Below are positions 6,141 to 31,500 of a stretch of DNA of 34,554 nucleotides, in pieces (positions within the stretch are counted from its first letter, which is position 1; each line of letters begins with the position of its first letter). The translations under genes were made by a program, and so were the position numbers. The notes under the pieces were generated by a model that saw only the letters and a program-made list of their open reading frames with translations, was not told the origin of the DNA and did no database searches. This stretch comes from Thiotrichaceae bacterium (GTDB lineage: Bacteria > Pseudomonadota > Gammaproteobacteria > Thiotrichales > Thiotrichaceae), in contig JALXAX010000193.1 of the NCBI GenBank assembly GCA_026991755.1, positions 1-34,554 on the forward strand. Direction: 5' to 3'.

Positions 6141-6170
6141 CAGTAATTAAGAAATGCTTTCAATCTAAAA

Positions 6171-6329
6171 GAGACCTTTGCACGAAAGATATGACGGATA
6201 CAAATGGCTTGAATTCCCTCTATTTCTGCTAAAAATTCGGTCAATAGCTCGGCTATTACCCTCTTTTTTAACAGAAATAGATGAAATTACGCTCATTTCT
6301 CTCTCGCCATCCTTTCATGCAAAGGTCTC
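6171..6329. mobile_element. MITE family A, copy 2 (159 bp), encoding the C-terminus of the adjacent gene
   Basis: Same terminal repeats as copy 1 (GAGACCTTTGCACGAAAG at the left; CTTTCATGCAAAGGTCTC at the right, one mismatch). It is flanked by a 5-bp direct repeat TAAAA (6166-6170 and 6330-6334). The right terminal repeat is read on the minus strand as the final codons Glu-Thr-Phe-Ala-stop of the membrane protein gene at 6315-7106. Confidence 0.88.
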
Positions 6330-7106: not shown

Positions 7107-7141
7107 TATTATTTCCTATTGTTATTTTATTAATTTTTGCA

Positions 7142-7154
7142 GAGACCTTTGCAC
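7142..7154. repeat. Solo family A terminal repeat fragment
   Basis: GAGACCTTTGCAC matches the first 13 bases of the family A terminus, just upstream of the membrane protein gene; no partner end follows in the expected distance. It may be a decayed MITE end. Confidence 0.45.
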
Positions 7155-7215
7155 TTAAAGTTTCTTATAAAGGACACTTCTATAGATATTCACAAATTAC
7201 ATTTCTTATCTACTA

Positions 7216-7272
7216 TGGTAGAGACGTTGCGTGCAACGTCTCTACGGGAAATTATTTTAGTAAAGGTCTATA
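7216..7272. repeat. 57-bp palindromic repeat B, right copy (inverted)
   Basis: Reverse complement of 6084-6140 with three differences, including the palindrome GTAGAGACGTTGCGTGCAAC and its outer arm. Placed upstream of the BPSS1780-like gene, while the other copy lies downstream. Confidence 0.9.
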
Positions 7273-7300
7273 TTAATTAGATAGACCCCACAGCCAAATT

Positions 7301-7613
7301 AGTACATCAACCAGCTCAAAATGTCGGTCTCAGTTATCCTGCCTGCCTTCATGGCTACGACTGCATGGATGCAGGAGGTAGGGCAATGCAGGAGCAACTT
7401 GCCGAGGCGCACTTTGCAGGGAATGGTTGTTCCCTTCACCAAAAGTGCAACAACGGCATGGAGGCAGACAGGACAACCCTTTGGGCGCATTTGTGAGGCT
7501 CTGCCTCTGCGTTACAGTGCTTGACAAGGACGCTGCCATTGCCTGCACACTGTGCCTTGATGCAAAGCCTCACAAAAGCGCTGAGACCGACATTTTGGAC
7601 TGATTAATGTACT
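7301..7613. mobile_element. MITE-like element family E (313 bp)
   Basis: Long imperfect terminal inverted repeats of about 33 bp: the left end begins AGTACATCAACCAGCTCAAA and the right end, read on the other strand, begins AGTACATTAATCAGTCCAAA; both continue into ATGTCGGTCTCAG. The interior is visibly richer in G and C than the neighbourhood and has short overlapping open frames on both strands that resemble no protein. This suggests a non-autonomous element with a foreign interior. No clear target duplication is visible. Confidence 0.75.
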
Positions 7614-7853
7614 AGTATACCTTAACAATCCTTGCTGATAAATGCATCAGTGTATACACCATCATCTTGTTTTATTGAGTATGTAGGGTATACCTTGTTT
7701 CTTGAACACCCTAAAGCAACCAGCCTGTCATTGAAGATTTTAATCCTAAGTGTTTTTCTATACTATGAGCCACGTAAAAGCACAAGAACAATGCAAACAC
7801 CACTAACAAAATAATGAAGGTTAACCCTTCAAAACCAACCACAGTTATTTTTC

Positions 7854-8975
7854 ATGAAGAAAATCGAATCAGGTAATGTCAGTATTGTCACCTTTATCAC
7901 TAAAGGGGATATTGGTGGCGCACAAATCCATGTAAAAGATATTACAGCTGCCTTACAAGCTTTGGGGAATACGGTATTAGTGGTAGTAGGTGAAGACGCA
8001 GAGTTTACGACGATGTTAGCGGAGTTAGGTATTCCCTATCGTGTGATGAATCATTTGGTGCGCGAAATAAACCCAGCAAAAGATGTTAAAGCTTATAAAG
8101 AAATCAGACAGCTACTTCAAGAAGTTCAACCTGATCTAGTCACTCTGCATTCATCCAAAGCGGGGATATTAGGTCGACTTGCTGTTTATTTTGAAAAGAC
8201 CCCCTCCACTTTTACCGTACACGGCTGGGCTTTTACCGATGGTGTAAGTGCTAAAAAGCAATTGATCTATAAGACGATTGAAAAAATAGGCGCATGGTTT
8301 CCAACGCATTTAATTGCCGTATCTAACTATGATCGTAAAATAGGCATTGATCAACATGTCTGCAAACCAACAAAGATTAAAGCTGTGCAAAACGGCATGC
8401 CTGATATAGACCCAACACTGATAGCTGATGCTTCAAGTGAACCACCAAAACTCATTATGGTAGCTCGCTTTGCCCAACAAAAAGATCACAAAACATTAAT
8501 TGAAGCGCTTGCTGAACTCAAAGACTTACAATGGGAACTTAATCTCATCGGTGGAGATGGTGGCTTATTATCAGCAGCCAAGGAGGCTATTGCTGATTAT
8601 GGGTTAGAAGAAAAGATACATATTCTGGGCTATCGAAACGATATCGATAAACTAATGGCAGATAGCCAAATCTTCGTCCTAAGTAGCCACTGGGAAGGTT
8701 TTCCCCTCACCATCATTGAAGCTATGCGTGCAGCCATGCCCGTTATTGCCTCCGATGTAGGTGGTGTGAGTGAAGCAGTCATCCATAACGAAACTGGCTA
8801 TGTGACACACTCTAAAGAGGAGATGGTCTCTGCATTACGCTCACTCATTACTGATGCCGATAAAAGAGCGGCAATGGGTAAACAAGCGAGAGCCAATTAT
8901 GAACAATACTTTACGCTTGAGACACAACTTGAAAATACCTTTTCTTTGTATAACGAGCTCCTCCAAAAATCATAA
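7854..8975 (+). CDS. Family 4 glycosyltransferase
   Basis: A 373-residue cytosolic or membrane-associated GT-B fold enzyme that would transfer a sugar from a nucleotide-sugar donor during glycan or exopolysaccharide synthesis. N-terminal acceptor half (about 1-190): FITKGDIGGAQIHV, with a Gly-Gly loop, and TVHGWAF. C-terminal donor half: LIMVARFAQQKDHKTL (phosphate-binding Arg/Lys region) and the EX7E motif in EGFPLTIIEA (Glu281, Glu289), ending with DVGGVSEAV. The retaining mechanism is a family property. It stands alone, with no polysaccharide cluster around it, so donor and acceptor are unknown. No good Shine-Dalgarno precedes the ATG. The 240 bp upstream (7614-7853) hold no convincing gene. 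Confidence 0.92.
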   Translation: MKKIESGNVSIVTFITKGDIGGAQIHVKDITAALQALGNTVLVVVGEDAEFTTMLAELGIPYRVMNHLVREINPAKDVKAYKEIRQLLQEVQPDLVTLHSSKAGILGRLAVYFEKTPSTFTVHGWAFTDGVSAKKQLIYKTIEKIGAWFPTHLIAVSNYDRKIGIDQHVCKPTKIKAVQNGMPDIDPTLIADASSEPPKLIMVARFAQQKDHKTLIEALAELKDLQWELNLIGGDGGLLSAAKEAIADYGLEEKIHILGYRNDIDKLMADSQIFVLSSHWEGFPLTIIEAMRAAMPVIASDVGGVSEAVIHNETGYVTHSKEEMVSALRSLITDADKRAAMGKQARANYEQYFTLETQLENTFSLYNELLQKS

Positions 8976-9114
8976 GTCCTAGAACGGTATAACCTCCTGA
9001 CCTTATAAATCAATCTATCACTTTTTCCAACACATCTAACCTGTTAATATTAGCGCTTACTTAAAGTGACACCTCACTTACACCTACCTATTAGTTACAA
9101 GGCAAGTACAGACT

Positions 9115-9825
9115 ATGGAAAACGTCGACCCCAATGAAATCCGTAAATTTGATGTGATAGCTAGTCGCTGGTGGGATACCAACAGTGAATTCAAGCCCTT
9201 ACATGACATTAACCCGTTACGCCTCAACTATATTGATGAGCACTGTGCAGGCTTACAGGGCAAAAAGATCATCGACGTAGGCTGTGGAGGCGGCATTCTT
9301 GCTGAAAGTATGGCGATGCGTGGCGCAGAGGTAACAGGCATTGATATGGGTGAAACACCTTTATCTGTTGCGAGACTACATAGTTTAGAAATGGATGTTG
9401 AGTTAGATTACCAACAAACAACAGTAGAGCAAATGGCTGAAGAGCATGCAGGCGAGTTCGATATAGTCACTTGTATGGAAATGCTGGAGCATGTTCCCTC
9501 CCCTGAATCTATTATTCAAGCTTGTAGCAAATTAGTAAAACCAGGTGGAAAGCTCTTTTTCTCAACCATCAATCGTAACCCTAAAGCCTTTCTATTTGCT
9601 ATTGTTGGTGCAGAATATTTACTTAATATGCTCCCAAAAGGCACTCATGAGTTTGCCAAATTTATCAAACCTTCCGAACTAGAGACACAAGCTCGTCAAG
9701 CAAGTTTAACCGTCAAAAACATGAAGGGATTGACTTACAACCCTCTATTCCAAACCTACAAACTCTCATCAGACGTAGATGTGAATTACATGATGTATTT
9801 CACTAAACAAGCAGCCGACCAATAG
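9115..9825 (+). CDS. ubiG: Ubiquinone biosynthesis O-methyltransferase UbiG
   Basis: A 236-residue SAM-dependent methyltransferase, full length for UbiG. It performs both O-methylation steps of ubiquinone synthesis at the cytoplasmic face of the inner membrane. Family markers are [14 protein letters not shown] at the N-terminus, [11 protein letters not shown], motif I DVGCGGG (54-60), the [12 protein letters not shown] stretch, and a C-terminal [13 protein letters not shown] and NYMMYF. A lipoprotein gene follows after 8 bp, with its AGGA overlapping the ubiG stop, so the two are probably one transcript. Presence of ubiG agrees with a respiring, ubiquinone-using proteobacterium. Confidence 0.97.
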
Positions 9826-15703: not shown

Positions 15704-18178
15704 ATGCACACCGCCAACCATAACTTTATACAAGCCCTACTCTTCTCGACCTGTCTACTAACCAGTATCAATACGACAGCTGCACCTTTTACCTGGGATA
15801 TTGATGGCGACGGCGAAGTTAAACCCCTCACCGATGGACTTTTGCATATTCGCTATCATTTTGGCTTTAGAGGAAACACGCTGATTAGCAATGCAGTCAG
15901 TAACACTGCTAGCCGTACCAGTGCTACTGATATTGAGGCTTATCTATCCAGTGGCATCGCAGAAAGTGATATTGATGGCGACGGTCTGGTTAAACCGCTT
16001 ACTGACAGCTTGCTACTACTCCGTTACTTATTCGGTTTTCATGATACCTCGTTGATTACAAATGCTGTTGATCAAAACGCAAGTCGTACACTAGCTGCGG
16101 ACATAGAGCAATATATCCTGCTAAAAACCCCCAACCATATTGACACTGATAACGATGGTATAACAGATATCAACGACCCTGATGATGACAATGATGGGCT
16201 ACTAGATACGGTAGAGATTGCCCAAGGCACAGACCCCTATAATAGTGACAGCGATGGTGATGGCGTAGCCGATAATATTGATGACTTTCCTTTAGACAGC
16301 AACAAAGCAACCAGCTATGAGAAAGCACACCGTTTTCTTGTTCAAGCTACCTTTGGCCCCAGCACTGATGATCTTCAAGAAGTAGAAACTAAAGGAATTG
16401 AAGCCTGGGTTGATAAGCAACTTGCTTTGCCTTCTGCCTATGACAATACAAGCGATGCCCATCAAACACACTTGCAACGACTTATCGAGATAGCTACAAC
16501 CGCTGAACCCAATACAAACTGGTTTGGCAACAGTGTATTTAATAAAGCCGTAGCATCCTTTACTGCGGATGAATACCAGATGGCCGCCTGGTGGGAGAAT
16601 GCATTAAGCCATCCAACAAAAACAGCACATGGAGCAGATCAACTACGCCAGAAAATAGCCTACGCACTGAGCCAGATTGTAGTTGTCTCGAACGGTGAAT
16701 CACCCTTACACCGCCGAGGTGAAGCCTTAGCTAGCTATTACGACATTCTGGCAAAAAATGCCTTCGGTAACTATCGTGACTTACTCGGAGAAATCTCACG
16801 TAGCCCTACCATGGGTGTTTATCTATCACATCAAGGTAATCGTAAAACAGATTTAGCCGCAGCAACCAGCCCTGATGAAAACTTTGCACGAGAAGTCATT
16901 CAACTATTCACTATTGGTTTATATGAACTCAATAATGACGGCTCATTTAATCGAGACAGCAATCCAAACACCTATCCTGATGCGGGTACGAACATCATCC
17001 CTACTTATACTCAGAATGATATTGCTGAAATGGCCAAAGTCATGACTGGCTGGGATTTGGTAGGCAATAATAAATACGGAAAAGCTTCATTTACCCAAGG
17101 TGATTATACCGTTCCGATGGAATTTACAACTGCGCAACACGAAGATGAAGTGGCTGAAGGCGGCGATGGTTTAATTACCCTTATGGGACAAACTTTTGCG
17201 CTAAACTCTGGCGCTGACCATAGTGGTATGGATGCAGCACTTGATGTGTTATTTCAACACCCTAATATTGCGCCTTTTATTAGTCGTCATTTAATTATGC
17301 GATTAGTGACATCCAATCCCTCTGCAGATTATATCGCACGAGTTTCACAAGCCTTTAATGATAACGGCAATGGTGTAAAAGGTGATCTAAAAGCAGTGGT
17401 CAAAGCGATTCTGTTAGATGAAGAGGCACGACTGATAACAAATACGCAAGCAACTGGATTTGGCAAAGTTAAAGAGCCCCTATTAGCTTTTACACAGTTT
17501 TTACGCGCATTCACTGTACGCCCACTCAATGGTTGGATAGGCAAGGATAAGTCAACGGTTGTAAACAACGTGTATTGGTATAAAGCACCTGAAAAGCACT
17601 TTGGACAAGCACCTCTACGCTCTCCCAGCGTCTTTAATTATTATTCACCTGATTTCATTCCGAGCGATAGTAGCTTCGCCCAAAATGCCAGAGTAGCCCC
17701 TGAATTACAAATACAGACTGATCAGGTATTGGTAGAAATGAACAATCGTTTTTATTCCCTGCTCAATACCTATGAATACAACAAAATTACCGTTCTGGAT
17801 GGCAAAACCTTAAGCCAGTTTGCAGCCAGTAAAAAATTCAACAGTGAGAATTTATTCCTAATCGACTTTACGACAGAACTCAACGTATATGAGCAAGCAT
17901 TAGACGGTAATACTAATGGTGACTTTGCCAATATGGAGCTTATTAACCCGACGACAGGTCTACGTTATAAAGATTCTGCAATAGACGCTTTGCTAGAACA
18001 TCTTAATAAGCGTTTATTAGGAGGGACAATGACAACAGAGTATCGCGCAGGTCTAAAACATTACTTATTGAGCGCCGCAGGCTCCAGACATAACAATGAC
18101 TATAAAGAAGCTTGGCTCAATATTAGAGATGCAGTGCGATTAATCGTCACATCCAGTGCTTATATGGTTCAAAAATAG
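15704..18178 (+). CDS. Exported dockerin-DUF1800 protein with thrombospondin-3-like calcium repeats
   Basis: An 824-residue secreted or surface protein. Signal peptide about 1-27 (ends TTAA). Residues 32-140 form a paired dockerin-like module: DIDGDGEVKPLTDGLLHIRY and DIDGDGLVKPLTDSLLLLRY, each an Asp-rich calcium loop plus helix, followed by an ASRT...IEAYL/IEQYI tail. Residues 145-197 carry further calcium loops (DTDNDGITD, DDDNDGLLD, DSDGDGVAD) of the thrombospondin type 3 kind. The rest (about 205-824) is a DUF1800 domain, starting HRFLVQATFGPSTDDL and including FAREVIQLFTIGLYELN and APLRSPSVFNYYSPDF. DUF1800 genes are commonly paired with DUF1501 genes, as here; the biochemical function of the pair is not known to me. 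Probably co-transcribed with the next gene, 9 bp away. Confidence 0.9.
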   Translation: MHTANHNFIQALLFSTCLLTSINTTAAPFTWDIDGDGEVKPLTDGLLHIRYHFGFRGNTLISNAVSNTASRTSATDIEAYLSSGIAESDIDGDGLVKPLTDSLLLLRYLFGFHDTSLITNAVDQNASRTLAADIEQYILLKTPNHIDTDNDGITDINDPDDDNDGLLDTVEIAQGTDPYNSDSDGDGVADNIDDFPLDSNKATSYEKAHRFLVQATFGPSTDDLQEVETKGIEAWVDKQLALPSAYDNTSDAHQTHLQRLIEIATTAEPNTNWFGNSVFNKAVASFTADEYQMAAWWENALSHPTKTAHGADQLRQKIAYALSQIVVVSNGESPLHRRGEALASYYDILAKNAFGNYRDLLGEISRSPTMGVYLSHQGNRKTDLAAATSPDENFAREVIQLFTIGLYELNNDGSFNRDSNPNTYPDAGTNIIPTYTQNDIAEMAKVMTGWDLVGNNKYGKASFTQGDYTVPMEFTTAQHEDEVAEGGDGLITLMGQTFALNSGADHSGMDAALDVLFQHPNIAPFISRHLIMRLVTSNPSADYIARVSQAFNDNGNGVKGDLKAVVKAILLDEEARLITNTQATGFGKVKEPLLAFTQFLRAFTVRPLNGWIGKDKSTVVNNVYWYKAPEKHFGQAPLRSPSVFNYYSPDFIPSDSSFAQNARVAPELQIQTDQVLVEMNNRFYSLLNTYEYNKITVLDGKTLSQFAASKKFNSENLFLIDFTTELNVYEQALDGNTNGDFANMELINPTTGLRYKDSAIDALLEHLNKRLLGGTMTTEYRAGLKHYLLSAAGSRHNNDYKEAWLNIRDAVRLIVTSSAYMVQK

Positions 18179-18187
18179 GGGTTGACG

Positions 18188-19849
18188 ATGAAACAGAACA
18201 AAACAACACGCCGTGATTTCATGAAACTGCTATTGAGTTCCAGCGTAGTGGGTGCAACTTCTCAGTTAGGCTTAATGCAGCAAGCACTTGCGGCGGCTCC
18301 AGCGTTTTCTGATTATAAAGCACTAGTCTGTGTGTTTTTAGCAGGAGGCAATGACAGCTTTAATATGCTGATCCCTTCGGGGAGTGCCGCTAATAAAGGA
18401 TATGCCGATTATTCGGCTATTCGAGGCAACCTTGCCATTGCTAATAACCCCTTCGATTTATCACACATTGCTATTAGCAATACCAACCTTAACCAAGGCA
18501 ACTTAGGCACGGGTGCTGCCAATCCCTATAATATCGATTTAAAGACAGAAACTGCCTACCTCAGTGGCCTGTATTCTTTAGCAAATAAAGGCATTGATCT
18601 TGGCGTAAATGGTGTTATGCCAGAGTTGGCACAGCTAATCACTGATAATAAAGCAAGCGTTTTAGCCAATATTGGCACCTTGGTAAACCCCGTTAGTCGT
18701 GCAGAAATACTAGCCGACACAGCCAATTTACCCCTATTTTTATTCGCACATAATCACCAACAACGCATCTTACAAACAGGGCAAGCAGACAACCTCAGCG
18801 ATATCGGCTGGGCAGGTAAAATTGCAGACCAATGGTTAGGCATTAATAACAACTCCCCTTTTGGTTTAAATATTTCTTATGCCAGTAATGACCGCATGCT
18901 CATTGGCAATCAATCAAAGCCCTTGGTACTCAGACCAGGAGCACCACCACGTTTTCTAGAAATGGTGCAGGATGTTAATAACGCCAACAATGACCGTATT
19001 GCCATTTTTAAAGCTCTGATGGGGATTGAAAACAATTCTTCATCAGGCAATGTGAGTTTTGGCACAACCAACACCTTCACTACCACTGATGATTTCAAAC
19101 GTGTCTATGGGGAGGGTTTAAATAAATCCTATAATACCTTTGATTCGCTTTACAGCACTTGGAATGCCAACCCTATTAACTACACCAGTACTGGCTCCTA
19201 TGGTGAGGCTCTATTTGCCAAACCATCAAAAGCCGATTTAGGATTCAGCGATGAAATAAAAGGTGGACTATTTTCTCAGCTTGATGCGGTTGCCAAGATG
19301 ATTAATTTGGGCGCTAGTGGTGCTTTTCAGGGAACTGCATTTAATCGTCAAATTTTCTACGTTAAACTAGGTGGGTTTGATACTCATAGCGGACAAGTAA
19401 CCAAACACCCTCTGCTATTACGTGAACTTAGCTTGGGTTTGTGGAAATTCCAAAAAGCAATGGAAGAGCTAGGTCATGCCAACAAGGTAACCACATTTAC
19501 CATGTCCGATTTCGGTCGTTCCATGAGTAATAACGGTGATGGTACAGACCACGCTTGGGGAGCACATCATCTGGTAATGGGTGGAGATGGACAGAATGCA
19601 ACAGGCAATCTACATGGCGGGCAAATGATTGGCGACTTACCTGACATCACTTTACAAGGAACGGATGATCACGATAAAAAGGGCAGAATCATTCCTTCGA
19701 TAGCGCAAGATCAGCTCAATGCGAGCTTATGCCGATGGTTTGGAGTCGATGAGAATACGATTTCTAGTATTTTCACCAATTTGCCTAACTTTGAAACTCA
19801 GAATGGCGTGACAGATAGTGCTTATTTGAATAGTTTATTTGTAACCTGA
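18188..19849 (+). CDS. Tat-exported DUF1501 protein
   Basis: A 553-residue protein of the DUF1501 family, which shares an alkaline-phosphatase/sulfatase-like fold. The N-terminus has a twin-arginine signal, TTRRDFMKLLLSS, with the cleavage region ALAAA, so it is exported folded. Family markers include LVCVFLAGGNDSFNML, LFLFAHNHQQRI, YVKLGGFDTHSGQ, FTMSDFGRSM and HAWGAHHLVMG; the Asp/His-rich motifs could hold metals. I place the start at the ATG at 18188 with AGGGG 6 bp upstream rather than the in-frame TTG at 18182. It is tightly downstream of the DUF1800 gene, the usual order for this pair. It has no dockerin module, so if it joins the surface complex it must do so through DUF1800. Function unknown. 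Confidence 0.92.
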   Translation: MKQNKTTRRDFMKLLLSSSVVGATSQLGLMQQALAAAPAFSDYKALVCVFLAGGNDSFNMLIPSGSAANKGYADYSAIRGNLAIANNPFDLSHIAISNTNLNQGNLGTGAANPYNIDLKTETAYLSGLYSLANKGIDLGVNGVMPELAQLITDNKASVLANIGTLVNPVSRAEILADTANLPLFLFAHNHQQRILQTGQADNLSDIGWAGKIADQWLGINNNSPFGLNISYASNDRMLIGNQSKPLVLRPGAPPRFLEMVQDVNNANNDRIAIFKALMGIENNSSSGNVSFGTTNTFTTTDDFKRVYGEGLNKSYNTFDSLYSTWNANPINYTSTGSYGEALFAKPSKADLGFSDEIKGGLFSQLDAVAKMINLGASGAFQGTAFNRQIFYVKLGGFDTHSGQVTKHPLLLRELSLGLWKFQKAMEELGHANKVTTFTMSDFGRSMSNNGDGTDHAWGAHHLVMGGDGQNATGNLHGGQMIGDLPDITLQGTDDHDKKGRIIPSIAQDQLNASLCRWFGVDENTISSIFTNLPNFETQNGVTDSAYLNSLFVT

Positions 19850-19981
19850 ATGCGTGACCTCACGGGTTCAAATAAGCCCATGCTATAAGGTGAAGACTTT
19901 ATTAGTGTAGAATACACAATATGGGTTACAGATTTACAATCAAACATCTAAGTAGCTCAAAGCTATCTTCTGAAAACTTAG

Positions 19982-19987
19982 TATAAT
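19982..19987 (+). promoter_or_regulatory. Candidate -10 box for the cohesin-like gene
   Basis: A consensus TATAAT lies 44 bp before the ATG at 20031, in the 181-bp gap after the DUF1501 gene. No good -35 hexamer is seen at 16-18 bp, so this is tentative. It would allow the cohesin-like gene separate expression. Confidence 0.3.
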
Positions 19988-20030
19988 GATCAATTAATAA
20001 CTGTGGCTTACATCATAATTGGGGACTAAT

Positions 20031-20663
20031 ATGGACAAAAACATTACTTTAAAAACAGCAATAGCTTTAACAGTTCTCTCACTAGCTAGCTTTGCAACGG
20101 CATCTACCCAAACCATTTCAGCCAGAGACTCGTCTGGATATGACACAACCTCAGGTGAAAGCTTTGATATACCTCTTGACTACACATCAGACTCAGCTAA
20201 TTTAGCAGGGCTAGGAGTATCATTAGCTTTTGATTCCACAAAACTTGCCTTCCAGGGTTTCTCTTCAGCATCAACATTAGATAAGGATTTATTGGCAGCT
20301 GATACAACAGCAACTAATGATTCTGCTAACCTTGACCAAGATGATTCAACCGACAAACTCGTTACTATTGCATGGGCATCACTGAACGGCGATTGGCCAG
20401 GAACAACATCTACCCCGTTAACAACTGCACGTTTCAAAGTACTTGATAGTGCATCATCAGATTCTGCAATTAATATAACGGGCAATGCGGCTTCTAATAC
20501 CACATTCTCTTCTAGCCCTATCGTTGTCCGTATAGAAAAAAATTCTGAACAACCTTCACCCTCTACACAGACTAACAGCGGAGGGGGAGGTAGCTTTTTC
20601 TGGTATTTATTCCCGTTGCTTATTTTTCTTAAAGGTATTAGGAAACGCCTACTAGTGCTTTAA
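20031..20663 (+). CDS. Cohesin-like domain protein with GlyGly-CTERM (rhombosortase) anchor
   Basis: A 210-residue exported protein. Signal peptide 1-24 (ends FATA). Residues about 27-168 resemble a cohesin/carbohydrate-binding beta-sandwich: FDIPLDYTSDSANLAGLGVS, FDSTKLAFQGFS, then VTIAWASLNGDWPG and TPLTTARFKVLD. A Ser/Pro/Thr linker (170-182) leads to SGGGGS (183-188), one hydrophobic helix (189-200) and a basic end KGIRKR, the tripartite GlyGly-CTERM signal recognised by rhombosortase in type II secretion species. The ATG at 20031 has GGGGA 6 bp upstream, so the in-frame TTG at 20019 is rejected. Its neighbours on both sides carry dockerin-like modules, which suggests it is their surface receptor. 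Domain assignment by pattern; binding not shown. Confidence 0.82.
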   Translation: MDKNITLKTAIALTVLSLASFATASTQTISARDSSGYDTTSGESFDIPLDYTSDSANLAGLGVSLAFDSTKLAFQGFSSASTLDKDLLAADTTATNDSANLDQDDSTDKLVTIAWASLNGDWPGTTSTPLTTARFKVLDSASSDSAINITGNAASNTTFSSSPIVVRIEKNSEQPSPSTQTNSGGGGSFFWYLFPLLIFLKGIRKRLLVL

Positions 20664-20938
20664 GGAAGCTCTGAACAAGTCATTTTACGTTTTTACGAGG
20701 CCAATATTCGCTATAAAAGTGACCAATAACTACTATTATTGCTAACTTTTCTATCAAGAATCTGATAAATTCTATCTGCTGAAGCTTCTAAGTTTCGCTA
20801 AAGCTACGTGCCGATTAAGATCAAGGATTCAGGGGATAAAAGGTTGCTATACCCTTTGGGTACAAGTCAGAACGTTCAAGTTATTTCATGCACGTTCCTT
20901 AGTCACTGAAATTCCGATCAGACTTGATCAGAGCCTCC
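20664..20938. mobile_element. MITE family C, copy 2 (275 bp), inverted and carrying an insertion
   Basis: Left end GGAAGCTCTGAACAAG and right end CTTGATCAGAGCCTCC are inverted repeats; flanks are TTAA (20660-20663, containing the stop of the cohesin-like gene) and TCAA (20939-20942). The interior matches copy 1 (4506-4702) in reverse orientation but contains about 100 bp extra, between the AATTCCGATCAG end and the segment TTTCGCTAAAGCT. It separates the cohesin-like gene from the protease gene and may hold the latter's promoter. Confidence 0.78.
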
Positions 20939-21025
20939 TCAAGTTTATCTATTTTCTCAAGTACGAGTAAAAGCTGTCCAAGGACGGGAGCTAACTTATT
21001 TAATGTTTATATTTTGGTAATTCCC

Positions 21026-24000
21026 ATGATTTTTCACCCTTTTCGCTTATTATTCTTATTGCTTTGCACAACGTCAGTATTCGCAGATTCAAACTCACTT
21101 TGGTCTGATATTAAGACGTTGGAACATGCTAAAAATGCATCTCAGGCAAAAGTAGCAGTTGCTAAAAATACCTCACTCTCATTAATGCCCGACACATACA
21201 GGCTGTATCGTCTTGATGAAGCAGGTATGCGATCAGAGTTGGCGCAACATAATACGGTTACAACAGGGCAAAACAATAAAATAGCAAATGAGTTACAACT
21301 TCCTTTACCCTCAGGCAAGTTAATATCTCTAAAGGTTGCAGAACAAAGTATCATGGCAGCAGAACTGGCGGCCAAATACCCTGAAATTAAAACTTACCGA
21401 GTAGATGCTAATGATAATAACGGAATATATGGCGTTATAGACATCACCCAGCAAGGCTTTCATGCCATGTTGTTTATGCCAAATGGCCTCCAATGGTTCG
21501 TTGATCCACGTAAGTCTGCTGATGAAACCTTCTATATTAGTTATTATTCCAAGCATTATCATCCTTCTGAAAAACAGCCCTTTCAATGTAACATTGATGA
21601 ACATAATCACGATAAAGATCCATCGCCCGCTGCACAAACAATAACTCAGAATAAAACAGCACAACGATCAGGCGCTAATCTAAAAACATACCGACTTGTT
21701 ATGTCTGCAACAGGTGAATATACGGCATTTCATGGGGGTACCGTTGCAAGTGCACTAAGCGCAATCACGACTACTGTCAGCCGAGTTAATGTTATTTATG
21801 AACGTGATTTGGCCGTTAAGTTACAGCTGGTCGCCAACAACAATCTAATGATATTCACCGATGCTTCCACAGATCCTTTTACTGACCCCGCTGATGGAAA
21901 CCTATTGCTAGATGAAAACCAGGCACAAACCGATACTGTTATTGGCTCCGCTAACTACGATATAGGACATGTTGTAGGAATAGGAGGAGGTGGTCTTGCG
22001 GGCTTAGGTGTAGTGTGTAATACCTCACGTAAAGCCTTTGGCGAAACGGGAAGTTCTCAACCTGTGGGAGATGCTTTCGACATCGATTTTGTGTCACATG
22101 AAATAGGCCATCAGTTTGGCGGTAGTCATACCTTTAACAGTACTACGGGAAGCTGCTCAAACTCAAACCGCTCTGCCCTTCACGCTTTTGAACCAGGTAG
22201 CGGTACGACCATTCAGGCCTATGCTGGCATTTGTGGTAGTACGAATAATATACAAAACAACTCAGATGCCATGTTCCATATTGGTAGTATTGCACAAATG
22301 AGTGACTATATTGATAACGGAACGGGAAATACCTGCGGTGTAGCGTCTTCACTCTCCAATCAACAACCCATAGCGAACGCTGGGGCTGACTATACTATTC
22401 CCGCCAATACACCCTTTGCGTTAACAGGCGTAGCCTCAGACCCCGACGGTGACACCCTAAGCTATTCATGGGAGCAAATAGATGCAGGAACGGCTTCGGA
22501 CATTAATGTCGTTGAAATAGACAATGCTATTTTTCGTGCCTTTTTGCCTCAAAACACACCCACTCGCGTATTTCCAAAGCTAAGTAGTATTATCAGTAAT
22601 ACCGTCAGCAAAGGAGAAACATTATCTCCCATGGCACGTAATATAAACATGTCATTTGCGGTACGAGATCAAAAAGGAGGTGTGCAAGCTGATGAAATGC
22701 TAATAACCGTGGCTGCTTCAACAGGGTTTAAGATCACCTCACATAATACAACTAGTACATTAGGACCAAACACAGTGACGACCGTGACATGGGATGTGGC
22801 AAATACTGCCTCAGCCCCGATCAATTGTAGTGCGGTGAATATTTTGTTGTCTATTGATGAAGGTAATACCTTTACAACAATAGCTAATACGACTGCAAAT
22901 GATGGCAGTGAATCGGTTACCATACCCAGCAATGTAGCTGCAACGACGACGGGCAGATTTAAAATTGAATGTGCCAATAATATATTTTTTGATATCTCAG
23001 ACGCAAACCTAACCATACAGACTTCAGGTGTTAGCATTCTACCCGCTATCCTTTCCAATATTGGTAACAATAATAGTGTAGATCCAGGCGAAACAGTCTA
23101 TTTATCAATACCCCTACAAAGTTATGAGGCAATTACTGCAACCCAAGTATCTGGCACGCTTAGCAGCTCCGCCACAGGCGTTAATATTACGGTAGCCAAT
23201 AGCGCGTATCCTGATATCCCACCCTCCTCTCAGGTAAGTAACTCAGCCTTGTATCAAATGCAAATCCCATCGGATTATGTTTGTGGTACATCGATTCCTG
23301 TTACTTTAGATGCCAACTTTACACTTACAGCCGCAGCAACCGCCACATCAAACTTTTCTATCCCTGTGGGCACTAGTTCTGCAGCTGCGACAACGAACTC
23401 GACCGTCCTTACCATTCCTGACAATGACAGTGCGGGTATTACTTCGACCGTTACATTAGCAGCTGTAGGAACGGTTATTTCACCCGAAATAACCGTTGAT
23501 GTAGATATTACACATAGTTTTCGTGGTGATTTAAAACTTGAATTAACATCTCCACAGGGCACAACGGTTCTACTAAAAAACGCCGACAGCGGTGACAATG
23601 CGACGAACCTAATAGGTAATTACCCTAACACATTTGCACCCGTAGGCGACTTAACCAGCTTTAATGGTGAGAACCTCAATGGAGATTGGACGTTGAAGGT
23701 AAGTGATAATTTTAGTGTAGATACAGGCAAGCTTAATAGCTGGACGCTTCACTATGCTACAACTACATGCGAAACGGTGACCAACACAGCGCCTGTAGCT
23801 ACGAACAGTAGTATAACCACTAATGAAGGTATCGCTAAAACAGGCACACTACAAGCAACAGATGCTGATGGCAATGTGCTGATTTATAGCATTATCAGCA
23901 ATGGCACAAAAGGAAATGCGGTTATTACCAACACCACAAACGGTGCGTTTACCTATACACCGACCAATGGAGAAACAGGTCAAGACACCTTCACCTTCAG

Positions 24001-24421
24001 TGTCAGCGATGGGACTGCTACTTCAAATATAGCCACGGTCACTGTCACCATTAATTCAACAACCCCAACATCTACCTGGGACATCGATGGCAATGGCACA
24101 GTCAAACCTCTCACAGACGGCATACTGAATATACGTTATTTATTTAACTTTACAGGCTCTACCTTAATTGACAGTGCTTTTGATGCAACAGGCACTCGAA
24201 CCGATGCTACAGCGATAGAAGCTTACCTTGCTTCCATTCAATCGGTTAACGACATAGATGGCGACGGAACAACAAAACCATTAACAGATGGTTTATTACT
24301 GTTACGCTATTTGTTTGGATTCCGTGGCGACGCATTGGTGCAAGGTGCTGTTGATGCGGGAGCTACTCGACAAACTGCCGCAGCAATAGAAGCGTATATA
24401 GCGGCAGAGTTAGCGCAGTAG
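21026..24421 (+). CDS. Secreted reprolysin-like zinc metalloprotease with P domain, cadherin-like repeat and C-terminal dockerin pair
   Basis: A 1,131-residue exported protein. I start it at the ATG at 21026, which gives a clean signal peptide (MIFHPFRLLFLLLCTTSVFA); the frame extends upstream into MITE sequence that should not be coding. A propeptide-like region (about 20-215) precedes a metzincin domain with HEIGHQFGGSH (358-368; zinc His and catalytic Glu) and a Met-turn candidate in SDAMFHIGS. Next come a PKD/Ig-like part after QPIANAGADY, a proprotein-convertase P domain (about 806-914: HSFRGDLKLELTSP, NGDWTLKVSD), a cadherin-like tandem repeat (915-1012) and paired dockerin-like repeats (1016-1131: DIDGNGTVKPLTDGILNIRY, DIDGDGTTKPLTDGLLLLRY). 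Likely a surface or secreted protease acting on proteins outside the cell. Confidence 0.9.
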   Translation: MIFHPFRLLFLLLCTTSVFADSNSLWSDIKTLEHAKNASQAKVAVAKNTSLSLMPDTYRLYRLDEAGMRSELAQHNTVTTGQNNKIANELQLPLPSGKLISLKVAEQSIMAAELAAKYPEIKTYRVDANDNNGIYGVIDITQQGFHAMLFMPNGLQWFVDPRKSADETFYISYYSKHYHPSEKQPFQCNIDEHNHDKDPSPAAQTITQNKTAQRSGANLKTYRLVMSATGEYTAFHGGTVASALSAITTTVSRVNVIYERDLAVKLQLVANNNLMIFTDASTDPFTDPADGNLLLDENQAQTDTVIGSANYDIGHVVGIGGGGLAGLGVVCNTSRKAFGETGSSQPVGDAFDIDFVSHEIGHQFGGSHTFNSTTGSCSNSNRSALHAFEPGSGTTIQAYAGICGSTNNIQNNSDAMFHIGSIAQMSDYIDNGTGNTCGVASSLSNQQPIANAGADYTIPANTPFALTGVASDPDGDTLSYSWEQIDAGTASDINVVEIDNAIFRAFLPQNTPTRVFPKLSSIISNTVSKGETLSPMARNINMSFAVRDQKGGVQADEMLITVAASTGFKITSHNTTSTLGPNTVTTVTWDVANTASAPINCSAVNILLSIDEGNTFTTIANTTANDGSESVTIPSNVAATTTGRFKIECANNIFFDISDANLTIQTSGVSILPAILSNIGNNNSVDPGETVYLSIPLQSYEAITATQVSGTLSSSATGVNITVANSAYPDIPPSSQVSNSALYQMQIPSDYVCGTSIPVTLDANFTLTAAATATSNFSIPVGTSSAAATTNSTVLTIPDNDSAGITSTVTLAAVGTVISPEITVDVDITHSFRGDLKLELTSPQGTTVLLKNADSGDNATNLIGNYPNTFAPVGDLTSFNGENLNGDWTLKVSDNFSVDTGKLNSWTLHYATTTCETVTNTAPVATNSSITTNEGIAKTGTLQATDADGNVLIYSIISNGTKGNAVITNTTNGAFTYTPTNGETGQDTFTFSVSDGTATSNIATVTVTINSTTPTSTWDIDGNGTVKPLTDGILNIRYLFNFTGSTLIDSAFDATGTRTDATAIEAYLASIQSVNDIDGDGTTKPLTDGLLLLRYLFGFRGDALVQGAVDAGATRQTAAAIEAYIAAELAQ

Positions 24422-25631: not shown

Positions 25632-26171
25632 ATGAATAATAAAGGAAAACAATTGGGTTTTACTCTGACCGAAATGATGGTCACCATCGCTATTGCGGGG
25701 ATACTAGCAGGTGTTGCAATACCCTCTTTTCAAGCTATTTTTCTTAAGAATACAACCATTGCCTATACCGATGATTTCAAAATGGCACTTTATCTTGCTC
25801 AAAGCGAGGCTGTAAAACGTAATACTAATGTCTTAATAGCTCCTAAAACCACAGGTAACGATATCTGGGAAGATGGCTGGAGTATTTTCATTGATGGAAA
25901 TAGCAATAATACATTCGAATCAGCTGATGACGAACTCATACGAACCTATACGCCCAGTGCCAATAACTACCGATTAGAATCAAGTTTAAGTGGCTTTGAT
26001 ACGGGGCTAGCCTTTAATTCACTGGGTGAGCCAAGTACCCCTTCTGGTACTGCATCTGGGGTGGAATTCTGGGTGTGCGGTCAAAATTCAAATGATTCAC
26101 AGTCACGTCGCACAGTAACCGTAAGCTTTGCAGGCAGTATCATTGTTAAAGAAGGTGCAACATGTCCTTAA
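25632..26171 (+). CDS. fimT: Type IV minor pilin FimT/GspH-like
   Basis: A 179-residue pseudopilin. The short basic leader MNNKGKQLG ends at the prepilin peptidase site G|FTLTEMM, with Glu5 of the mature protein present, followed by the hydrophobic N-terminal helix and a GspH-like C-terminal domain (LYLAQSEAVKRNTNVLI, GWSIFIDGN, GEPSTPSGT, and a final Cys-Pro). Minor pilins prime assembly of the pilus and sit at its tip with PilY1. First gene of the cluster fimT-pilV-pilW-pilX-pilY1; its stop overlaps the start of pilV by 10 bp. The upstream 31 bp are all that separates it from a MITE, and I see no strong Shine-Dalgarno. Confidence 0.92.
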   Translation: MNNKGKQLGFTLTEMMVTIAIAGILAGVAIPSFQAIFLKNTTIAYTDDFKMALYLAQSEAVKRNTNVLIAPKTTGNDIWEDGWSIFIDGNSNNTFESADDELIRTYTPSANNYRLESSLSGFDTGLAFNSLGEPSTPSGTASGVEFWVCGQNSNDSQSRRTVTVSFAGSIIVKEGATCP

Positions 26172-26650
26172 ACCTAGAAAACGCATTTGGGTTAAATAAT
26201 CACCCCCATTCTACTGTTTCTCAAACTGGCTTTAGCCTTATTGAAGTACTTGTAACTGTCGTCGTAACGGCCTTTGGGTTAATTGGTCTAGCGGGACTTC
26301 AGATGAGTTCTGTTAACACCACTACTAAAGCTTCCGCAAACACACATGCTCAGATAGCCATGCAAGAAATTGTTGGGCAACTTCTTGCCAACAAAGATGC
26401 CGCAAAAGCGGGGAGCTTTAATCTTCTGGCTAATACTGATGGTACGTTGCAAACCTTTACCGTTAACCCCGACATATCAAATCTGGATTTTTCTCAGAAA
26501 ATTACCTATCGCTGGTTCAATAACCTAAACAATGTAATACCAGGAGTAAGGGCAGGAATAGAATGTAACGCCACAAATATGTGCGCGATTCGTATTCAGT
26601 TAAGCGAGTCTATTGAGAACATGGAACAAGTCGTTTCAATACAATTATGA
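26162..26650 (+). CDS. pilV: Type IV minor pilin PilV
   Basis: A 162-residue prepilin. The leader is longer than usual (about 23 residues: MSLNLENAFGLNNHPHSTVS and on) before the cleavage site G|FSLIEVLVTVVV. The motif GLAGLQMSS after the helix is typical of PilV. The C-terminal domain has a Cys pair near residues 137 and 144. The gene starts inside the end of fimT and ends overlapping pilW at ATGA (26647-26650), so translation is coupled across all three. An internal Met is not available close to the cleavage site, which supports the long leader. Confidence 0.9.
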   Translation: MSLNLENAFGLNNHPHSTVSQTGFSLIEVLVTVVVTAFGLIGLAGLQMSSVNTTTKASANTHAQIAMQEIVGQLLANKDAAKAGSFNLLANTDGTLQTFTVNPDISNLDFSQKITYRWFNNLNNVIPGVRAGIECNATNMCAIRIQLSESIENMEQVVSIQL

Positions 26651-27726
26651 GAAAAAAATACTTACATCAATTAAAGCTACCTAAATCATGCAAGCAACAT
26701 GGTTTTAGCATTATTGAGCTTATGATTTCATCTGCTCTCGGTATTTTTTTGACAGCTGGGGCGCTAAGCCTCTATAGCTCTAATAAAGATTCCTACCGAA
26801 TACAACAAGCAATATCTAATACACTTAAAAACAGTCGTTTCGTTATCGGTCGCTTAGAAAAAAGTATCTCTAGTGCAGGTTATTCGGGATTTTTTGGTAG
26901 TTATGTAGACGGTGTAGAAAACACACTAAACTCTCCTACCAATATCCTTTGGGACATTGAAATTCCTATTAAGGGATATAACAATGTAAGCAGTTCAGAC
27001 ACAATTGCAGGTATTACGGGTATTACTGCGGGTACCGATGTTTTAGTACTTAAAAGCATGGTTTATGAGTCAAATCTAATCAACCAAACATCCAGTAGCT
27101 CATTTACCATCAATGCGGCATCAGGGTATAGCGATGGAGATATAGTCATCGTTACTGATCTCAACAAAGCATCTATGTTTCAAATCAGCGATGCTGATGA
27201 CACTTCAACAGTAGGCCAAACAACTGTAACGGTTACTGCAGGCGCCTCACCTAAACCTGGAAATGCAGCACTTCCTATAAACACTTTTGATAATACAGCG
27301 ACGATAGGCAGGTTAGAAACCGTCATCTATTTCTTGAAAGCGAATGCTAATGGAAATACTTCTTTATACGAAGGCCGACTAACAACCTCTACCGATCCTG
27401 ATGTTGACCCTATAACAACAGCCATAGAAATCATCCCTAACGTCGAAAACATGCAGTTTATTTACGGCATTGATTCTGATAACAACAAAAGTATCGACAA
27501 ATATATTGATGCCTCAACTGTCACCGCAGCAGAGTGGGGATTAGTTCACACCATTGGCGTTAGCCTGCTTTTACACAGTAATCAGGATAACATTACCGAT
27601 GATAGTACATCCTATAGCTTTGATTCTACTAACTTTACTTTTACTAAAGATACAACAGCATCATCTACTGCTACCAAGCATTTGAAACAAACCATCAATA
27701 CTTATATAAAACTGCGAAATCTTTAA
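26647..27726 (+). CDS. pilW: Type IV minor pilin PilW
   Basis: A 359-residue prepilin-like protein. The basic leader ends at HG|FSIIELMISSALG, followed by a 20-residue hydrophobic helix and then RIQQAISNTLKNSRFVIGRL, a segment typical of PilW. The large C-terminal beta-rich region includes GTDVLVLKSM, LETVIYFLKAN and ENMQFIYGIDSDNN, the last shared by most PilW proteins. Start overlaps the pilV stop by 4 bp. Followed by 108 bp without a gene before pilX. Confidence 0.92.
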   Translation: MRKKYLHQLKLPKSCKQHGFSIIELMISSALGIFLTAGALSLYSSNKDSYRIQQAISNTLKNSRFVIGRLEKSISSAGYSGFFGSYVDGVENTLNSPTNILWDIEIPIKGYNNVSSSDTIAGITGITAGTDVLVLKSMVYESNLINQTSSSSFTINAASGYSDGDIVIVTDLNKASMFQISDADDTSTVGQTTVTVTAGASPKPGNAALPINTFDNTATIGRLETVIYFLKANANGNTSLYEGRLTTSTDPDVDPITTAIEIIPNVENMQFIYGIDSDNNKSIDKYIDASTVTAAEWGLVHTIGVSLLLHSNQDNITDDSTSYSFDSTNFTFTKDTTASSTATKHLKQTINTYIKLRNL

Positions 27727-27834
27727 ATTACAAACTGTAAAATACAAGAATACAAGTACAACAGCCACACAACTCATTGACATAACGTAACAACGTATAA
27801 ATCACTAAATACCGAGCTTATAACATAACTAATA

Positions 27835-28506
27835 ATGAATAATAAAAACAACCCATATCAGCGCATTCATTCTTTAAAAGCTACACAACAAGGTGCAGCT
27901 GCACTCGTTATGACGCTTATTATCTTATCAGTGTTAACCATTATAGGTATAACCTCGTCAAAAACTGCTGTGATTGAAACACGCATGACAACCAATTCCA
28001 TCGAAAAGTTTAAATCACGAATTGCTGCTGAATCAGCCTTTAATTATGCCATTAATCAACTTGATGATTTCAATGAAATCGACTGGTTAAACACATGTGG
28101 TAGAAATGGTATATACGATCTACGCACTACCGCCAGCCCAACTTGCCCTGACCCTCTTAATTCGGGATCTACCGTACCTGCTAAAAGCCAAGCCCAATGG
28201 AACAGCATGCTTAATGTAAGTAATTGGAGCTGGGCAAGCAGTAGTTCTCATGCTGTCCTGTTAGATAAACTCTCAGCAGATGATGCCCAAATACTAACAA
28301 GTAGCTCTCAGCGCACTAACCCAATGGGCTTAGTGACGAACCCTCAATACATTATAGGCATTCATGATCCTGTATTACGACCAGGATCAGAGAACAAGCA
28401 TTGTTTTCCTGTGACTATTGTTGCCGCCTCTAAAGGTGGGGTAGATAGCTCTCAAACATTCATCAAAGTCAACGCAATCCCCGAAAGTGGATGTTATTAC
28501 CCATAA
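27835..28506 (+). CDS. pilX: Type IV minor pilin-associated protein PilX
   Basis: A 223-residue protein with the PilX N-terminus QQGAAALVMTLIILSVLTII followed by RMTTNSIEKFKSRIAAESA, where the AAESA stretch is a PilX/PilV family mark. The classic G|F cleavage site is replaced by a QQGAAA form, as is normal for PilX. Four Cys are present in the C-terminal half. Works with PilW and PilY1 in the tip complex. Lies 24 bp before pilY1. Confidence 0.9.
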   Translation: MNNKNNPYQRIHSLKATQQGAAALVMTLIILSVLTIIGITSSKTAVIETRMTTNSIEKFKSRIAAESAFNYAINQLDDFNEIDWLNTCGRNGIYDLRTTASPTCPDPLNSGSTVPAKSQAQWNSMLNVSNWSWASSSSHAVLLDKLSADDAQILTSSSQRTNPMGLVTNPQYIIGIHDPVLRPGSENKHCFPVTIVAASKGGVDSSQTFIKVNAIPESGCYYP

Positions 28507-28530
28507 AAAAGACAATAAAGTAGGTTAGTT

Positions 28531-31500
28531 ATGAAATATTCAATTTTTCAAAAAACAATGCTTGGTTTTGTTCTCCTTGCCATTTCCAGCTACGTTTCTG
28601 CCGCAAGCACCCCCATATCTCTTTATAAAAGTTTTGAAGGTAATATTGCCGTTGCTGCTATTGGTAATTCAGAATTAACTGAAACGGGGGGGACGGGTAA
28701 CTGTGGTAACGATAACGCCACTACTGCCACTCTGGCACTGCCAGCAGGTGCACAAGTCAAAGCAGCGTACTTATATTGGTATGCGATGACCGCTAACATT
28801 ACGTGGGGAGATAGCTTCGGATATGGAGCACTGTCGCAGTCTGCACCCGTCACTTTTCCTGCTTACACGGGGACTATTAACTCATCTCGTAAAATCAGTA
28901 CCAAGAAATTTAGTTGGGAAGGATATTGGAAATACAGTGGCTATTTTGCTGATGTGACTAGCCAGGTAACTAGTGGTATCAATGGAAACTATACTGTTGA
29001 CGTTCAAGGAGGCGCTTCAAGTTCAGCTTGTCCTCTGGTTGAAGAGAATGCTCGAAGCTGGAGTCTTATCGTTATCTATGAAGCCCCTTCCATCACTGAG
29101 AACAAAAAAATCTATGTTTATGACGGCATAAAAGGTTATCAAAACGAGAGTATCAGTATCCCTGTTTCTGGCTATGAAGTTCCAGCTATCTCTACAGCTG
29201 GTTCAATGACCGTCATCTCTATACAAGGAGACCCTGGTTTAGATGGTGAATACCTTAATACATCAGATACTAGCTTCCCTAGCTTCCCTAGTGACTTTGC
29301 AGACAGTGATCACGGTGCTGCACTTGATATTGACACCGTATCGGGAAATTTCACAGCAGGCTCTACATCAATGAGCCTAGACTCTGGGTCTATTCGAGAT
29401 TTGATATTTACCACCAATATTATTCTTTCTATACCTACAGTACCTACAGCTCAATGTTTTGCTATGCCAGATAATGCAGCAGAGCTTTATAGTTTTGACC
29501 TTAAAACAACCACTGCACCCACAGTAGTTGCGACTACCAAAATGTTAAATGGAGAGGGCTCAGCATATAGAGCAACCGATAATGCCATTTATGCTTTCCA
29601 CCAAGATGTTATTAGTGACACAGACCCTTCTGATCTATACAAAGTGCAGATGGACGGAACGGTTACTTTAATAAAAGCAGGTTTCCTCTCTCAAGCAGCG
29701 GTAGGAGGCGAGTTTATTCGTTATGAGGATGGCTCGGAGTATTTCTATGTTTTACAAAACCAAGGCAGTTCAAGTTTACTTAAGTTTGATGCTAAAAGCC
29801 TCTCAACGGGCACTCCTATAAGCACCACTGCGTTATTGTTCCCCGATACTACCGCTGCTAGCGTTTCTGGGTTAGCAATCAACCCCGTGACAGGAGAAAT
29901 ACTAGTATCTGACGATAGTTTAGATAGTACGGATTTTGTTGAAATCTATACGGTTAACCAAAGTAGTGGCCAGTTAACATTGAAAACTACACTAACCGTT
30001 GCAGGTATAGATGGTGAGTCGTTAGCCTTCTCAGAAAATGGTGACTTATATACTGAAAATGAGAGTGCGGGTGCTGCCATCAATGATAACAAAATCTTCA
30101 AAATTGATTTAGCAACAGGCAACTTAACCGAGGTTGAAACCAATATTAATGCCGTTGTTAATGGTGATATTGAGGCCATGTCATGTACGGGTAGTAAGTT
30201 ATTTACAAAGAACAGTATTACTAACCTAACGATTGTTACTAAAATCATCAACGACAACAGTGGAACACAAACCACAATGGCGGGGCTTAATGTTACTACT
30301 GACGCAGGATCACTTACCTTCGGCTCTGGTACAACAACAGGCTCCACTACTAGCTTTACTAGTAGTGCTGTAACAATAAATGAAGGACGCTACCAACTTT
30401 CAGCAACCAATCTGGCAAACTACACAACTGGAGATTGGAGTTGTAGCGGATCAAGTGGCGTTACTCTCAATCAAATTTTTGTTGAGGGTTCTGCTCAAGC
30501 GAATGTATTTATTCCCAATGGAGATAATGTAACTTGTACCATTACTTATGACGACGATGGTGGCTCTTCCTGTAGCGCTGGTCTAACGGGGGATATTAAT
30601 GCAGGGTTTACACCCGCAGCAAAACTGAAAAGTGGAGCTAAGGTCTTCCTTAGTAGTACCAATATATCTTCTAACGAGGGACATTTAAAAGCCTATACCA
30701 TTGCATCTAACGGCCTTCCCACTACAAGCTCATCTAACCTTGATTGGGATGCATCGACTGCCATGCACACTCAAAACAAGAGAGGCAAGCGTTTGTTCTC
30801 TACACAAGGGGGCAATAAAAAGAAATTTAAAAAACTCAATAATAATGCCTTTGGCAGCGTTGGCTTACCTTCTAATGACCAGATTAAAGATAATGTTGCA
30901 AATGCACTATTAGGTGCCATTTCACCTAATAGTAATCTTGGCTTATTAGACGACAAAGTTGATGTCGCACGTTATCTCTCCGATGCGGATTATAAAGCTT
31001 TTTATACGGATATTGCTTCAGCTCGTTCTGATGCTTCAGGTGCAACATCACCTAAGTTAGTGCTTTTAAGTAGTGATGATGGTTTTGTATATGCCTTTAG
31101 GCAGAACAATGGATATCTACATTGGGGTTGGACGCCACGAAGCTTAGTCAAAGAGATGCGTAATGCATCCAAGTTTATTAAGCAACACTACATGCAAGGA
31201 ACTATTGATGTTATGGATCTAAAAGATGGTTCTAACTACGCTTCTTATGTAGTAGGAAGTTATCGTGATGGTCTAGGACAATATGTTTTAAAACTTAAAG
31301 ATAACGGTAAATTGGACTCCATCGTTTGGGATACTGATCATAAAGATAGTAATTCATTAGCTGAAAGCTCGCCCAACCACGGAAAACGTGCTTATTTCTC
31401 TGATGGCAGTGGTAATAAATATATAGCATATATCATTACCAACTCATCGGATGAGTCAACTTTACATATTAGAAGTATCGTTAGTACATCCGTGCATTAT

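Follow-up and report, generated by a model that had tools for sequence, protein, structure and literature searches.

Cohesin-dockerin proteins outside cellulosomes were reportedly described by Peer et al. in 2009. Non-cellulosomal pairs of this kind are known in archaea and bacteria (PMC9012536; papers are cited here by PMC number). In freshwater Planctomycetes of the Nemodlikiaceae, a hypothetical structure termed the planctosome has been put forward, in which cohesin-dockerin pairs are proposed to hold peptidases (PMC6461901). A separate mode of display is described in V. cholerae, where rhombosortase cuts the GlyGly-CTERM tail and the new end bears a glycerophosphoethanolamine-containing moiety; export to the surface by type II secretion comes after tail processing, as in the case of VesB (PMC6219818). 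Here, we analyzed a contig of 34,554 nucleotides from a Thiotrichaceae bacterium (GenBank assembly GCA_026991755.1, contig JALXAX010000193.1), called the window below. Four of its genes lie on one (+) strand and code for a DUF1800 protein, a DUF1501 protein, a 210-aa protein and a reprolysin-like protease. We propose that this locus probably encodes a small non-cellulosomal cohesin-dockerin display system, in which the 210-aa protein would be the receptor.

The principle of cohesin-dockerin use outside cellulosomes, including the planctosome proposal with its reprolysin, is not new. The window and the planctosome were compared by description and not by sequence. They are alike in that an M12B Reprolysin_4-like peptidase is among the cargo proposed for the planctosome, outside cellulose degradation, and in that P-domains and TSP3 repeats occur, there on the anchoring protein (PMC6461901). 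However, the planctosome is anchored by a lamin-tail/P-domain/TSP3 protein of 2,210 aa together with an adaptor (PMC6461901), whereas the window has a 210-aa one-cohesin protein, a rhombosortase-type tail and a DUF1800 partner. The cohesin/dockerin proteins of ANME archaea are also used outside cellulose degradation; in contrast to those of the window they are archaeal and their partners are S-layer domains or ABC-transporter binding proteins (PMC9012536). With the GlyGly-CTERM/rhombosortase display of VesB, the locus shares the tail architecture, a rhombosortase and type II pseudopilin genes. In VesB the tail is on the enzyme itself (PMC6219818), whereas here it is on the cohesin receptor and the plugs are on other proteins. 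Similarities with the type I cellulosome (e.g. of Clostridium thermocellum) are the predicted cohesin fold, the paired calcium-loop dockerin-like plugs at protein ends and the existence, in other genomes, of multi-cohesin proteins carrying one or more modules (L058, L071, L098; G- and L-numbers stand for other genomes and loci, G000 for the window's own genome and C-numbers for its contigs). Unlike in the cellulosome, the cohesin proteins of the own genome have one cohesin each, the repeat is 57 residues long with a 13-residue loop, and the window cargo consists of a protease and a DUF1800 protein. No scaffoldin with several cohesins holding cellulases was found, the cargo in the window and on contig C175 including no cellulase. 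A literature search that covered few subscription papers found no description of the enlarged dockerin family seen here and its partner cohesins, or of a cohesin on rhombosortase- or IPTL-type sorting tags.

The putative plugs are paired modules present in two window proteins. The exported DUF1800 protein (824 aa, 15704..18178, +; signal peptide by eye) carries a pair near its mature N-terminus (15785..16135, +; units 15791-15955 and 15962-16126, with 121.5 and 113.9 bits against the module profile). The second pair is at the C-terminus of the exported M12B reprolysin-like protease (21026..24421, +), at 24068..24418 (+; units 24074-24238 and 24245-24409). Searched against all reading frames of the window, the profile matched only these two proteins. 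The original prediction of a nearly identical paired calcium-loop module at opposite ends of the two proteins was borne out, as 22 of 56 columns are invariant across the four units. Per-unit E-values ranged from 5.1e-35 to 1.6e-32, the four units being rows of the profile itself, and by these values chance is excluded as the source of their likeness. Each unit is laid out as a loop (DxDGDGxxxxLTD), a helix with an invariant Arg and about 30 further residues including an ATR...IExYL motif; in the model of a relative's cassette, the loop of every unit is followed by three helices, the middle one short. In both units, Asp 1, 3 and 13 of the loop and Arg 19 of the helix are conserved in at least 30 of the 31 pairs. 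The two units are 56% identical in the protease and 58% in the DUF1800 protein, and within-pair identity over the 31 pairs averages 56% (range 35-81%). Because the units of a pair are this similar, a symmetric plug with two binding orientations is plausible by analogy with type I dockerins, which have two binding orientations (PMC12484212).

The relation of these modules to dockerins was then assessed. Like Dockerin type I (PF00404), they consist of two near-repeated segments of calcium loop and helix. The 12-residue F-hand loop in short segments that also marks PF00404 was not found in them, since 13 residues run from the first to the last Asp; when the module is aligned with the xylanase Y dockerin (1ohz_B), the additional residue faces a gap. 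The repeat in the protease measures 57 residues and the classical dockerin segment is shorter, about 22 residues. A module variant in the distant genomes G437 and G467 has the classical 12-residue loop and lies within or beside cohesin proteins (L162, L164). Dockerin_1 matched 11 of the 31 module pairs at E<=0.1 (best 4.1e-6), and its gathering score of 22.9 was reached inside the module by two of nine proteins (L164, 31.7; L162, 22.9); the Dockerin_1 matches of L098 and L071 fall outside their modules and were left out of this count. When the protease pair was used as a single-sequence query against the PDB, the only chain at E<=10 was a dockerin (0.9). In the fold searches with the cassette model, the rows shown cover the cohesin part, and helices are present in the module part of the model. 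The modules, first taken for dockerins, would thus far be dockerin-related via relatives, longer than the classical form and with a loop longer by one residue.

The presumed receptor, encoded between the genes of the DUF1800 protein and the protease, is an exported protein of 210 aa (20031..20663, +; signal peptide by eye), for which a cohesin-like domain had been claimed. This domain (20097..20546, +) was modelled with AlphaFold2 from 30 sequences of the window and of loci from a scan of named genomes, with a mean pLDDT of 95.0 and a pTM of 0.88. In a Foldseek search of the PDB, cohesins filled 26 of the 27 best rows (best E 1.8e-8); the remaining one held the CLIPPER domain from a fibrillar adhesin. 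VIA-align gave a Z of 15.0 and an rmsd of 2.2 over 131 residues to 6kgf_C (CaCohA2), and the first non-cohesin rows were CLIPPER (Z 12.0) and a pilin (11.2). Judged by this model, the domain of the small protein is a cohesin, and the claim finds support by fold and, via relatives, by sequence. At E<=10, 11 of the 30 family members compared were matched by Pfam Cohesin (PF00963), the best at 3e-8, and the gathering score of 24.1 was passed within the domain by three of six proteins (L098, 50.0; L071, 42.1; L058 of Cocleimonas, 42.4). With the family profile A7, one PDB sequence was retrieved at E<=10, the scaffoldin C cohesin 5lxv_A (E 1.2e-4); an earlier profile of seven rows had given two matches, both cohesins, at E 0.59 and 1.0. 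Pfam Cohesin matched nothing in the own genome, which we regard as a miss of sensitivity because family members do match. Membership of the window cohesin in the Pfam family would be transitive through its relatives.

Module and cohesin appear strongly linked across genomes. Among 57 relatives, the module was found in 14 (E<=1e-3), the cohesin in 14 (E<=1e-5) and both in 13 (Fisher p = 8e-11). The same three genomes have module and cohesin among 369 of the class (Fisher 1.2e-7), and all six cohesin genomes fall within the ten module genomes among 398 of the phylum (Fisher 4e-11). The exception G015 has modules only; one module gene there is truncated by the contig start, and the counterpart of this gene in G021 holds a cohesin in the part that is missing from G015. 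Both parts are present at 13 of the 17 loci analyzed in the own genome and in relatives. The distance between module and cohesin is about 2.4 kb in G013 and G026, from match coordinates, and about 7 kb in G274 and G458; the loci of the latter two are outside the window's family and share >=90% identity with none of the named-genome scan loci. In that scan, 80 of 105 module loci were taken and a cohesin-like domain was found on the available DNA of 49 (33/34 from Hormoscilla, 16/46 others). Three scan loci (L058, L068, L086) recur among the relatives' loci, where the identical records are numbered L042, L045 and L044; they come from Cocleimonas and Leucothrix, which are genera of Thiotrichaceae. 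Domains found as cargo on 18 chosen module proteins, 3 of them without any match at 1e-5, were haem peroxidase, GH81, GH16, M4 and trypsin-like peptidases, CAP, beta-lactamase-like, phosphoesterase and GDSL lipase. The original description of the device as unrelated to cellulose holds for those cargo domains that were identified in the window and does not extend to related modules elsewhere, which occur on GH81 and GH16 enzymes.

The analysis shows a cohesin fold, homology to cohesins and dockerins via relatives, genomic linkage and the presence of rhombosortase and pseudopilin genes, which combined support a display system. According to our proposal, the 210-aa protein would be exported, its Gly-rich tail probably cut by the cell's own rhombosortase and a lipid put in place, and the processed cohesin would, as has been proposed for VesB, reach the surface through a type II secretion system. 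Protease and DUF1800 protein would be secreted and then caught by means of their calcium-loaded paired modules, the single window cohesin holding the former by a C-terminal plug and the latter by an N-terminal one; a plug at opposite ends of two proteins is as expected of a portable binding module. A module protein on contig C175 and a tailed cohesin on contig C140 would belong to the same set. Binding of the two parts, the need for calcium, tail processing and the location of the complex on the outer surface are what we infer here.

Several observations weigh against this reading. Firstly, neither part is recognized directly by its family model: no Pfam model matches the window cohesin itself, and Dockerin_1 does not match the window module pairs, whether the protease pair alone or the whole proteins are searched. 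Three of six cohesin proteins fail the Pfam score within the domain (L162, 16.1; L164, no match; L085, which passes at another site), and of nine proteins with the module seven are below the Dockerin_1 cut-off inside it, among them a second G437 protein (22.0) and L068 of Leucothrix (13.5); L085, L163 and L058 have no Dockerin_1 match in the module. Profile searches of the PDB with the modules gave dockerins only at E 0.066-2.5, below the unrelated phage repressor 2fjr; these matches were dropped as proof of a dockerin, being not significant and with 2fjr ranked first. The window modules appear dockerin-related rather than classical, and their membership is transitive via relatives. Secondly, the genome counts are not phylogenetically independent, several positives coming from one family or genus, and their p-values overstate independence. 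The genomes that supplied profile rows (G000, G017, G021, G023, G467) match by construction; in G467, stretch L151 is identical over 3.3 kb to L074 of Magnetococcales, a row of the module profile A9 and of no cohesin profile. In G004, which has a cohesin, profile A1 found no module, and 30 of 46 module loci outside Hormoscilla have no cohesin within the DNA available. Thirdly, the GlyGly-CTERM model TIGR03501 does not match the window tail at E<=10, and the hydrophobic stretch of this tail is weak, with a mean Kyte-Doolittle value of 1.54 compared to 2.2-2.5 for most tailed homologues (1.45 for L088).

The third point bears on where the receptor would reside. Its C-terminal tail (20574..20660, +) consists of SGGGGS without Cys, a short hydrophobic stretch and a K/R-rich basic end, the architecture by which GlyGly-CTERM tails are described (PMC3237569). 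The tail of the C140 cohesin is likewise made of Gly motif, hydrophobic stretch and basic end, and is not matched by TIGR03501 either. In the own genome, TIGR03501 gave one sub-threshold match at E<=1, a TSP3-repeat protein on C175 (14.7 vs 15.5 bits). The GlyGly-CTERM tail of the original prediction was therefore retained as an architecture and not as a TIGR03501 match. According to its authors, Haft and Varghese, this model misses true members, and curation was by tail features (PMC3237569). The prediction also relied on a rhombosortase and a type II secretion system in the genome. One rhombosortase is present above the curated cut-off (134.7-135.4 bits vs 84), and the pseudopilin genes GspG, GspH, GspI and GspJ, the only type II genes covered and all over their cut-offs, adjoin it. 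It is unlikely that the receptor is periplasmic or released, with the tail as an ordinary membrane anchor and the complex never at the outer surface. The missing match to the GlyGly-CTERM model and the five of five examined cohesins of genus g2 (L048, L049, L052, L053, L054) that have no hydrophobic tail are in keeping with such a location; the rhombosortase beside pseudopilin genes, the tail features used in curation together with the known misses of the model, and the IPTL-like tails of both examined g5 cohesins (L050, L051) argue for surface display.

Tails vary across the family. IPTL-CTERM scored over its cut-off of 20.5 in the homologous cohesins L070 (28.2) and L050 (22.7), and sub-threshold IPTL/XrtH or JDVT/MYXO-CTERM scores were obtained for those of L068, L051 and L088. 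In Leucothrix, a GlyGly-like cohesin tail occurs beside an IPTL-like one, and many homologous cohesins, including those of genus g2, have no hydrophobic tail. Of the 57 relatives, 39 have a rhombosortase; among the 14 cohesin genomes it is present in 12 and was not found at E<=1e-15 in G017 and G021. Because of this distribution, rhombosortase looks like shared machinery and not a mark of this system. The idea that the linkage of module and cohesin runs through rhombosortase was rejected as a general rule, 39 of 57 relatives having the enzyme and only 14 a cohesin. The rhombosortase link appears local, as relatives' cohesins use IPTL-CTERM tails or show no anchor.

These tails leave room for a wider and more tentative proposal, for which we would give slightly less than an even chance: an unnamed, widespread Gram-negative display, in which cohesins sit on exchangeable C-terminal sorting tags (candidates are GlyGly-CTERM-like, IPTL-CTERM and perhaps JDVT/MYXO-CTERM-like) and an enlarged dockerin with a 13-residue loop catches secreted enzymes of diverse kinds. 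If true, a lipid-anchored socket and separately secreted plugs would allow one sorting event to display many enzymes. The locus would be a concrete case of cohesin-dockerin use outside cellulose degradation in metagenome-assembled genomes, including those of the genera Leucothrix and Cocleimonas, which have cultured species. It would also offer a possible reason for GlyGly-CTERM-like and IPTL-CTERM tails on small enzyme-free proteins, a possible surface context for the DUF1800/DUF1501 pair, and candidate Gram-negative cohesin/dockerin pairs for protein display.

The arrangement of the two parts allows another interpretation. The cohesin-like domain and the module pair may be halves of one composite unit (X module-like), or common secretion-associated domains, that stabilise or space proteins and do not bind in trans; we consider this distinctly improbable. 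At 33 of the 34 loci from Hormoscilla and at 10 of the 46 others, one polypeptide carries both parts, cohesin first; one polypeptide also carries both at 4 of the 17 loci of the own genome and its relatives. The model of the cassette shows a good fold (pLDDT 93.1) and, with a pTM of 0.72, no confident overall arrangement. Separate frames are nevertheless common, being found within 700 bases of each other at 11 of these 17 loci (where both forms may share a locus); at 10 of the 46 non-Hormoscilla loci, a cohesin frame lies within 700 bases of another module frame. Moreover, several cohesin proteins free of modules bear C-terminal anchors, and the window holds the separate form only.

Further members of the proposed display system were found in the own genome, as anticipated, with at least three intact module proteins in total. 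The expectation of a one-cohesin device failed: two cohesin matches were obtained, one per protein, and the second protein (C140:5351-6046, L013; 231 aa) has a similar tail with SSGGGS. No module was found within the 16 kb covered at the C140 locus. The third module protein, on C175, combines GDSL lipase, LamG and DUF4832. It is very doubtful that the window cohesin serves other proteins, such as that of C175, in a true cohesin-dockerin system while its neighbours pair with the C140 cohesin: two cohesins just 35% identical and at least three intact module proteins would allow it, and the adjacency of the window genes on one strand and the close likeness of the module units of the two window proteins oppose it.

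Other observations concern loci outside the window. Contig C175 (L016:142-3132 and 6084-9755) also encodes the long TSP3-repeat protein with the near-threshold GlyGly-CTERM tail, which together with a neighbour that is OmpA-like by eye sits 3 kb upstream of the module protein. On contig C40 (L015:5375-5640, -), a remnant of a dockerin-like pair, the end of unit 1 and the whole of unit 2, lies behind stop codons; this open frame of 87 residues without an enzyme is apparently a broken module gene. A 2103-aa protein containing a cohesin is encoded in G004, of the same genus (L161:313-6621). Two proteins (L071:6311-12565 and L098:6443-12553), one of them from Pirellulaceae, each join a trypsin domain to four cohesins and two module pairs, with Dockerin_1 as a further, separate domain; by this domain content they would be proteases doubling as scaffold. 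The 34 Hormoscilla loci (L100-L106, L108-L134) come from two records of this cyanobacterium, and 33 of them have a similar C-terminal cassette of cohesin plus module on frames of very different length; such cassettes could form a self-assembling polymer.

In the window, the DUF1800 domain of the 15704-18178 protein scored 282.1 bits with Pfam. The protease contains a Reprolysin_4 domain (21683..22297, +; 107.5 bits), a proprotein convertase P-domain (23486..23752, +) and Ig/cadherin-like domains. Its gene probably starts at ATG 21026, the listed TTG start seeming too early; this ATG is preferred because a signal-peptide-like stretch, seen by eye, opens there. The DUF1501 protein (18182..19849, +; alternative ATG 18188) is without a module, since only two window frames match the module profile. 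Its N-terminus is Tat-like at 14.4 bits, below the cut-off of 16.7. Gene pairs for DUF1800 and DUF1501 occur in other bacteria too, some adjoining chitin synthase genes (PMC5122149). Promoter and terminator scans gave 21 sites vs 24.3 in shuffles and 5 vs 8.1, i.e. no excess, and for this reason no operon is claimed. Divergent to the DUF1800 gene, the segment 12552-15342 (-) seems by eye to code for a LuxR-type response regulator and for a histidine kinase whose sensor is binding-protein-like, a possible regulator. Directly downstream of the protease gene, 25632-32316 resembles by eye a minor type IV pilin operon with a PilY1-like protein last.

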